Source: Phycisphaerae bacterium (GTDB taxonomy: Bacteria; Planctomycetota; Phycisphaerae; SM23-33). Taken from it: a stretch of DNA of 41,043 nucleotides. The notes beneath the pieces were generated by a model. It was not told the DNA's origin. It was given only the letters and a program-made list of their open reading frames with translations, and ran no database searches. Shown piece by piece: positions 712-10,597 of the stretch (position 1 is its first letter; the number at the start of each line of letters is the position of its first letter). Position numbers and translations under genes: made by a program. The DNA is taken from positions 1-41,043 of the forward strand of contig JAFGEJ010000058.1 of NCBI GenBank assembly GCA_016931655.1, read 5' to 3'.

Positions 712-737
712 CCAGGCGGAGCACCTGCTCCGCCTGG
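712..737. repeat. 26-nt hairpin, 11-4-11 (ccaggcggagc-acct-gctccgcctgg), first member of pair 1
   Basis: Perfect 11-bp inverted repeat with 4-nt loop ACCT. Confidence 0.9.
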
Positions 738-756
738 TCGAGGAAAGTGAGCTTTA

Positions 757-782
757 CTTGGCGGAGCTGGTGCTCCGCCAAG
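757..782. repeat. 26-nt hairpin, 11-4-11 (cttggcggagc-tggt-gctccgccaag), second member of pair 1 in opposite orientation
   Basis: Perfect 11-bp inverted repeat; loop TGGT is ACCA on the other strand. Confidence 0.9.
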
Positions 783-9053: not shown

Positions 9054-10597
9054 GGTGTTTCCTCCGGCTGGGCGATGGGATTGACGTCCCTGTTTTCCCG
9101 CTTTAGTTTTGCGCGCATTTCCCGCACCAGCTTGAGTACCTGCTCCTGCCGGCCGGCGAGCTTGTCGTATTCCGCCTGGTCCCTGGGGACGGACAATTCG
9201 CCCGCCGCGGCGAGCTTGTCCAGCCGCCGCGTGGTTCGGTTGACGCGCAGTTGCTTCATGCGGAGCATGCGCAATTCCGCCACGGGCGGAATCAGGGGCG
9301 GTTTGCATTGTCCGCCGCCACCGCCGCCCATGCCGCGGCCGGGGCCTTTGGACAATTCCTTTCGCACCGCCTCCAGCAGTTCCTCCAGCGTGCGCTGAAT
9401 CTCTTCCTGCGTTGCCTGGGTAAGCGGGCCGGGGTCGAAATCCGCCAGGCGCTTCTGCACGTCCGTCAGATCGCGTCGCACGTCGCTCAGGACGGCGGGG
9501 AAGACCACCGTTGTGCCTTCCTTTTTCAGCAGGCTGCGGACGGCCCGGACCTCCTCGGCCAGTTCGCCCTCCACGCCGGCGAGTTCCACGAGCTTCTGCT
9601 GCGCGGGACGGTCATAGGGCGGGTCGGCCTTGGCGCGGGCGTCGTACGTGATGCGCGTCTGCTTCGTGCAGGCCTTCTGCTTTCGGAGCACCTTCTGGAG
9701 CCGTTCGGAAATATCCGCGAGCGTCTCGGCCTTGCTGCGGCGCTGAAGTTTTTCGATCTCCTCATCCAGCGATCGTATCGCGTCGCGGAGGTGATCCATG
9801 GTCTGGTTCTGGCGACGGTTGGCCCCGGTCGCGTCGTTGCCGCAAAGGCACTGGCCGGCTTTTCCGGAGCATCGGCCCGCCTTGGCGGCGGAGGCCCGGC
9901 CGGGCATGGGTTTCCCGTCACTCGGTTTTTTCATTCTCTCAGCGGTTTTGTGGATGTTTTTGGTGATCTCCTTCTGCTCGGCGTCGTCGAGGGGTTTGCC
10001 GGCTGCGTCACGGGTTTTGACTTCCTCGGCGGCCTGGCGCTTGAGCAGAGTGGCAAGGCGGTTTCGAATCGCACGCAGCCGGGCCGCCCGCTCGTCGATC
10101 TCGGACAAATCGCTCCGGGCGCCCTCCAGCAGGCGGAGCATGTACGTCAGGTCGCGGATCACCTCGGACTGGCCGGCCTGGGCGGCCTGGTCCAGCCCGC
10201 GACGCAGCAGGCGCTTGACGTCGTCGATTTTGTTGACCACGTCCTCCTGCTGGGCGTACATGACGGTCTGGCGGAGAATCTTCGCCGTGTCGGGGTCGGT
10301 TTTCTCCAACAGGGCGGCCACGTCCGACATGGCCGCAAGAAGTTCGTCCAGTTTTTTGCGAATGAAGTCCGCGGAGTGGACGAGATCCTCGCTTTGCCTG
10401 GCGCCCGGTTGGGTGGTCTGCGCCGTCGCGGCGCCCGGCGAGGCAATCGCCGCCGCCAGCAGGAACAGAAACACAAGGCGCACAAGGCCACTGCGTGGTG
10501 CAGCACCTGCTGCACCACGTTGAAATCGTTTTTTATACACCGTCGCCGTGGCGGAGCGGGTGCTCCGCCACGCAGGTATCTTATAATTCATATTCAT
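9050..10597 (-). CDS. Secreted coiled-coil protein of unknown function
   Basis: Start MNMNYKIPAW at 10597 overlaps the upstream stop; signal-like VRLVFLFLLAAAIASPGAATA, then long charged helical sequence. Confidence 0.72.
   Translation of the reverse strand: MNMNYKIPAWRSTRSATATVYKKRFQRGAAGAAPRSGLVRLVFLFLLAAAIASPGAATAQTTQPGARQSEDLVHSADFIRKKLDELLAAMSDVAALLEKTDPDTAKILRQTVMYAQQEDVVNKIDDVKRLLRRGLDQAAQAGQSEVIRDLTYMLRLLEGARSDLSEIDERAARLRAIRNRLATLLKRQAAEEVKTRDAAGKPLDDAEQKEITKNIHKTAERMKKPSDGKPMPGRASAAKAGRCSGKAGQCLCGNDATGANRRQNQTMDHLRDAIRSLDEEIEKLQRRSKAETLADISERLQKVLRKQKACTKQTRITYDARAKADPPYDRPAQQKLVELAGVEGELAEEVRAVRSLLKKEGTTVVFPAVLSDVRRDLTDVQKRLADFDPGPLTQATQEEIQRTLEELLEAVRKELSKGPGRGMGGGGGGQCKPPLIPPVAELRMLRMKQLRVNRTTRRLDKLAAAGELSVPRDQAEYDKLAGRQEQVLKLVREMRAKLKRENRDVNPIAQPEETP
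10494..10519. repeat. 26-nt hairpin, 11-4-11 (cgtggtgcagc-acct-gctgcaccacg), pair 2 member
   Basis: Perfect 11-bp inverted repeat, loop ACCT. Confidence 0.9.
10547..10572. repeat. 26-nt hairpin, 11-4-11 (cgtggcggagc-gggt-gctccgccacg), pair 2 member in opposite orientation
   Basis: Perfect 11-bp inverted repeat; loop GGGT is ACCC on the other strand. Confidence 0.9.

Follow-up and report, generated by a model that had tools for sequence, protein, structure and literature searches.

The usual explanation of REP palindromes invokes RAYT transposases and a GTAG foot. Most REPs fall into the GTAG and CGTC superfamilies, they have already been reported in Planctomycetes, head-to-head dimers and heterodimers have been described among them, and REPs of the CGTC superfamily are found without a transposase (PMC3733652). 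A further atypical foot, CnGA, is that of class 3 (PMC6006769). The doublet has been argued to be the mobile unit (PMC3116915), and biochemistry shows that RAYTs read the foot together with features of the hairpin (PMC8266576).

We analyzed a window of 41,043 nucleotides, contig C127 of the draft genome of a Phycisphaerae bacterium (G000; 2.82 Mb, 90% complete), in which the first-pass annotation had seen a REP doublet (BIME or REPIN), with a RAYT link implied. GTGFQPV-type repeats are among the features of the sequence that suggest a planctomycete. Several observations speak strongly for the anatomy of a REP doublet: the number of copies, their orientation and preferred spacing, the compensated stems, the fixed unpaired foot, the bias toward intergenic DNA and the restriction to one lineage. 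The link to a RAYT did not hold up. The pair is best read as a single copy of a mobile, non-autonomous, REPIN-like doublet, a reading to which we assign a probability of roughly 0.78.

The doublets of the window

The two hairpins lie exactly where they had been placed, ccaggcggagc-ACCT-gctccgcctgg at 712-737 on the forward strand and cttggcggagc-TGGT-gctccgccaag at 757-782 in inverted orientation. Both have a perfect 11-4-11 geometry, with loops ACCT and ACCA read on opposite strands, and are separated by a spacer of 19 nt (738-756), the mode of the family being 27 nt. Outside the doublet, the first hairpin is preceded by the 5' foot (tag) TTG at 709-711, the foot of the family being mostly ATTG, AATG or TTTG, and the second by ATG on the minus strand (783-785, cat on the plus strand). 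The region folds more stably than its shuffled versions (z = -7.4). A second doublet of the window has a forward hairpin with the stem cgtggtgcagc and an ACCT loop (10494-10519), a spacer of the modal 27 nt (10520-10546) and an inverted hairpin on the minus strand with an ACCC loop, GGGT on the plus strand (10547-10572).

A different hairpin family also occurs here. A partial copy of it, with variable arms, abuts the first pair at 791-830. Its frame is GCACCCA-CAAG...CTTG-AAGGTGCCAC, the arms again variable, and it was also seen at L035, L074, L082, L116 and other loci; its right end was matched 41 times in 1.18 Mb, and the copies often form inverted pairs separated by about 100 nt. The complementary strand resembles a REP with a GTGG foot and a bulge in its stem.

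Copy number and structure of the ACCN family

The pair is not isolated in its genome, as it would be had no further copies existed. The pattern GGYGSAGC-ACCN-GCTSCRCC gave 186 exact cores genome-wide (101 + 85), and the core GGCGGAGC-N4-GCTCCGCC 110 occurrences; the reversed-pattern control was 0 in both cases. Direct reading covered 1.18 Mb of the genome (42%), in contigs partly picked for carrying copies, so that density there is inflated, which does not apply to the whole-genome count. Within the 1.18 Mb, hairpins with a 4-nt loop and a stem of at least 9 bp numbered 109 for ACCN loops and 30 for all other loops. A first-order Markov sequence of 1 Mb, allowing any 4-nt loop, held 10 hairpins with stems of at least 9 bp and 0 with at least 11. 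The ACCN hairpins are therefore not due to chance. They are mostly intergenic: 40 of 99 copies fell inside greedy ORFs, although these ORFs, which are rough gene calls, cover 88% of the sequence.

The inverted arrangement and the compensation of the stem differences, both claimed for the first pair, recur across the family. Among 33 close pairs in the 1.18 Mb, 31 had the ACCN loop first and NGGT second, that is, head-to-head. Compensation was assessed on copies picked by left arm and loop only, which avoids selecting for pairing, with at least 6 pairs required (n = 116); the right arm was fully Watson-Crick in 106 of them and 98% of cells were paired. Hence orientation is not random and stem changes are not left uncompensated. 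In hairpins selected for pairing, positions 2, 3, 6 and 8 of the stem are variable, and the two partners change together.

The spacer is exactly 27 nt in 17 of the 31 head-to-head doublets. The commonest feet among the 109 ACCN hairpins were ATTG (31), AATG (20) and TTTG (13). At the outer ends of doublets, G is found at -1 in 60 of 60 and T at -2 in 50 of 60; beyond these, A or T is more weakly preferred as far as about -8, with little conservation farther out. The two halves tend to differ: stem position 6 was unlike in 28 of 33 doublets, against 16.3 expected, a value that none of 2000 shuffles reached. Such a preference for heterodimers is also known for many REP families (PMC3733652).

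BLAST matches among copies were most commonly 80-100 nt long, which is the length of the doublet. By strict rules 43 of the 76 units in the 1.18 Mb were single hairpins, but for 16 of these 43 a variant partner lies at the spacing expected of a doublet, which leaves 27 singles. In about 20 partners the loop is expanded (consensus AGGTCCCGNAGGGATGCCATAGGTAGG), a motif that a comparison of 100 genomes showed in G000 alone. The idea that this long-loop motif was an original transposon end was rejected, the motif being confined to that genome. Two paralogous loci of 84% BLAST identity, L044 (7356-7430) and L068 (4007), carry the same doublet; one of its hairpins has the short loop in one locus, while in the other locus this loop is 21 bases longer.

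RAYT genes pair with another hairpin family

A RAYT gene flanked by the same hairpins was searched for, and 0 of 13 RAYT loci were bordered by ACCN hairpins. The genome has nine matches to PF01797 (Y1 transposase). One protein, encoded in C74, is a RAYT by the NCBIfam equivalog model NF047646 (166 bits, cut-off 80), and it is flanked by GTAG-tagged hairpins (GCGTGCAACTTGTTGCACGC) whose stem and loop are unlike those of the ACCN family. Such GTAG-tagged hairpins also occur elsewhere in the genome, the search giving 16 matches when as many as 2 mismatches were allowed. The RAYTs of five relatives (G012, G016, G019, G024 and G028) likewise lie beside GTAG hairpins. At the other RAYT loci among the 13, no hairpins were recognized under the criteria used; two isolated matches to the short ACCN core (L223 and L229) were away from the RAYT gene. 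GTAG-REP copies coexist with the ACCN family in C74, C126, C234 and C272 of G000, several as head-to-head pairs.

Matches to the RAYT model were present in 16 of 17 genomes tested of the bacterial family, most of them without an ACCN hairpin. The presence of RAYTs and that of ACCN hairpins do not track each other. The REP-RAYT pairing here concerns a different hairpin family. A canonical pairing thus exists in this genome, for hairpins other than ACCN.

Search for another mobilizing enzyme

No transposase gene flanked by ACCN hairpins was found in the assembly, which lacks about 10% of the genome. An HUH gene beside a doublet in C96 (L025) was considered and rejected: the enzyme is an IS200-like TnpA bounded by ends of its own (CCGGGGG...CCCCCGG), and its adjacency looks fortuitous, because the corresponding site of G001 has a TnpA of this kind but no doublet. 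At L025, L026, L033 and L153 we saw small genes for IS200-like TnpA proteins, with the palindromes CCGGGGGTGAGCG...CCCCCGG and TCCCGAAGGGAC. A class-3-like HUH gene was also discarded; G001 has two, without ACCN flanks, while G000 has one short degraded fragment and G019 none. By eye, the ORFs between neighboring ACCN hairpins were housekeeping-like or spurious frames, among which no transposase was recognized. Some ACCN copies have beside them a dispersed repeat about 230 nt in length.

HUH domains were also noticed inside other genes. A RAYT-type HUH domain lies in frame inside an apparent valyl-tRNA synthetase (ValRS, recognized by reading the sequence) at L031 (G000:C245), L162/L235 (G001:C90), L168 (G028:C52), L233 (G021:C12) and L232 (G003:C1). 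The insert occupies the identical place, before VATTRPETMLGDTAVA, in G001, G003, G021 and G028; in G000 the left border matches and the contig ends within the insert. Its borders contain hairpin-encoded peptides such as GTGVSPV and GRDARATT. A second HUH domain of G000 is inside an apparent leucyl-tRNA synthetase (L029, G000:C242), and in G007 (L234, G007:C211) the domain is close to the C-terminal portion of a ValRS. That a mobile nuclease should be kept in an open frame within essential genes merits separate study.

Distribution and signs of movement

Among the genomes searched, the ACCN doublets are confined to two genera of a single family. More than one copy was present in 3 of 150 genomes: G000, its sister species (38 copies) and another genus of the family (21). 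The tagged pattern gave no match in 393 genomes of the phylum, a set that overlaps partly with the first 150. The foot G, the loop ACC and the 11-bp stem are common to G000, the sister species and the second genus.

Between the sister species, which have about 80% coding identity, copies are present or absent at orthologous intergenic sites in both directions. Locus L148 of G001 holds a doublet and the orthologous genes of the window have none between them; at L025/L153 the situation is the reverse. The intergenic DNA around the empty sites is diverged, so that exact element boundaries cannot be read off. Target-site duplications were not in excess in 29 doublets (2-nt matches were 2, with 3.9 expected from shuffling), the absence that is typical of IS200/IS605-type elements.

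Nature of the doublet

We regard the ACCN hairpins, the anatomy of whose doublets is directly observed, as a new REP-like family, probably mobilized by a single-strand (HUH) transposase. The unit is about 80-90 nt long and consists of the foot (A/T)TG, a hairpin, a spacer (typically 27 nt), an inverted hairpin and an inverted foot. In single-stranded DNA, for instance the lagging-strand template, each side could fold into its hairpin. A HUH/Y1-type transposase would recognize the hairpin by loop and foot, cut at a site chosen by the foot, and insert the unit elsewhere. The enzyme may have been lost, may be encoded in the unassembled 10% or so of the genome, or may act from a distance.

The nearest candidate would be the RAYT of C74, if it mobilized both GTAG and ACCN hairpins. 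It is a bona fide NF047646 RAYT of the same genome, and an ACCN doublet stands at the start of its contig, 3.5 kb away. However, its immediate neighbors are GTAG-tagged and differ in stem and loop, none of the 109 ACCN hairpins has that foot, and RAYTs are common in family members devoid of ACCN hairpins. Characterized RAYTs, moreover, recognize and cleave by the GTAG foot and hairpin features (PMC8266576), and we regard this double role as unlikely. Less likely still, and by a good measure, is that the hairpins are terminators or mRNA-stability elements, multiplied by recombination and kept for a role in RNA. Their strong folding (z = -7.4) and mostly intergenic position would fit such a role, yet the first pair has no terminator-like T run, the orientation of flanking genes is near background, with 16 of 83 between divergent genes, and no Rfam match came near the gathering score. 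The fixed inverted geometry, the strand-specific loop and the outer foot would all be unnecessary for RNA hairpins. Searches for terminators, Rfam families, phages and plasmids gave nothing meaningful. A classical miniature transposon of the DDE type (MITE), with TTGC...GCAA as its terminal inverted repeats, would account for the inverted ends and the defined unit of about 84 nt, but not for target-site duplications at chance level, nor for ends that are each a perfect hairpin with a strand-specific loop; this is the most improbable of the three.

We return thus to the REPIN-like mobile doublet. A broader proposal, which we advance tentatively and at less than even odds, is that it represents an additional class of REPs, characterized by the foot (A/T)TG and by an invariant ACC in the loop, moved by an enzyme other than a RAYT, that coexists with the GTAG-REP/RAYT set and is about ten times more numerous. 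The ACCN doublets are abundant and apparently recently mobile beside a canonical GTAG-REP/RAYT set, so a direct comparison within one genome is possible. The question of what moves REPs without GTAG, which also applies to the CGTC class, becomes testable.

Comparison with known systems

Class 3 hairpins, which are associated with TnpA in Planctomycetes and Acidobacteria and have the foot CnGA (PMC6006769), share with the ACCN family a high copy number and an atypical foot. The foot itself is different, and the class-3-like genes found in this bacterial family are not bordered by ACCN hairpins. The CGTC superfamily (PMC3733652) is similar in its loops of 4-5 nt, in the predominance of head-to-head dimers and in having no dedicated transposase. 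However, it is defined by a CGTC foot and a stem of 8-9 bp; the ACCN stem has 11 bp and does not start with AT, there is no CCA tail, and the foot was CGTC in 0 of 109 hairpins, with 0 GACG on the 3' side. With the GTAG superfamily and its RAYTs (PMC3733652, PMC8266576) the family has in common a hairpin with an unpaired 5' foot, head-to-head dimers and heterodimers. It differs in that this foot is never GTAG (0/109; GTAG or GT[AG]G in that superfamily) and in that the RAYTs of the genome adjoin other hairpins.

The closest likeness is to REPINs and BIMEs (PMC3116915), in which inverted palindromes with a spacer also form a repeating, mostly extragenic unit. As in them, the ACCN palindromes exist in many dispersed copies, form inverted pairs with a preferred spacing and are predominantly extragenic, and doublets predominate once variant partners are counted. 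The differences are that no cognate RAYT flanked by the same palindrome was found and that the foot is (A/T)TG instead of GTAG. The ACCN family therefore fits the REP kind, and belongs to neither the GTAG nor the CGTC superfamily.
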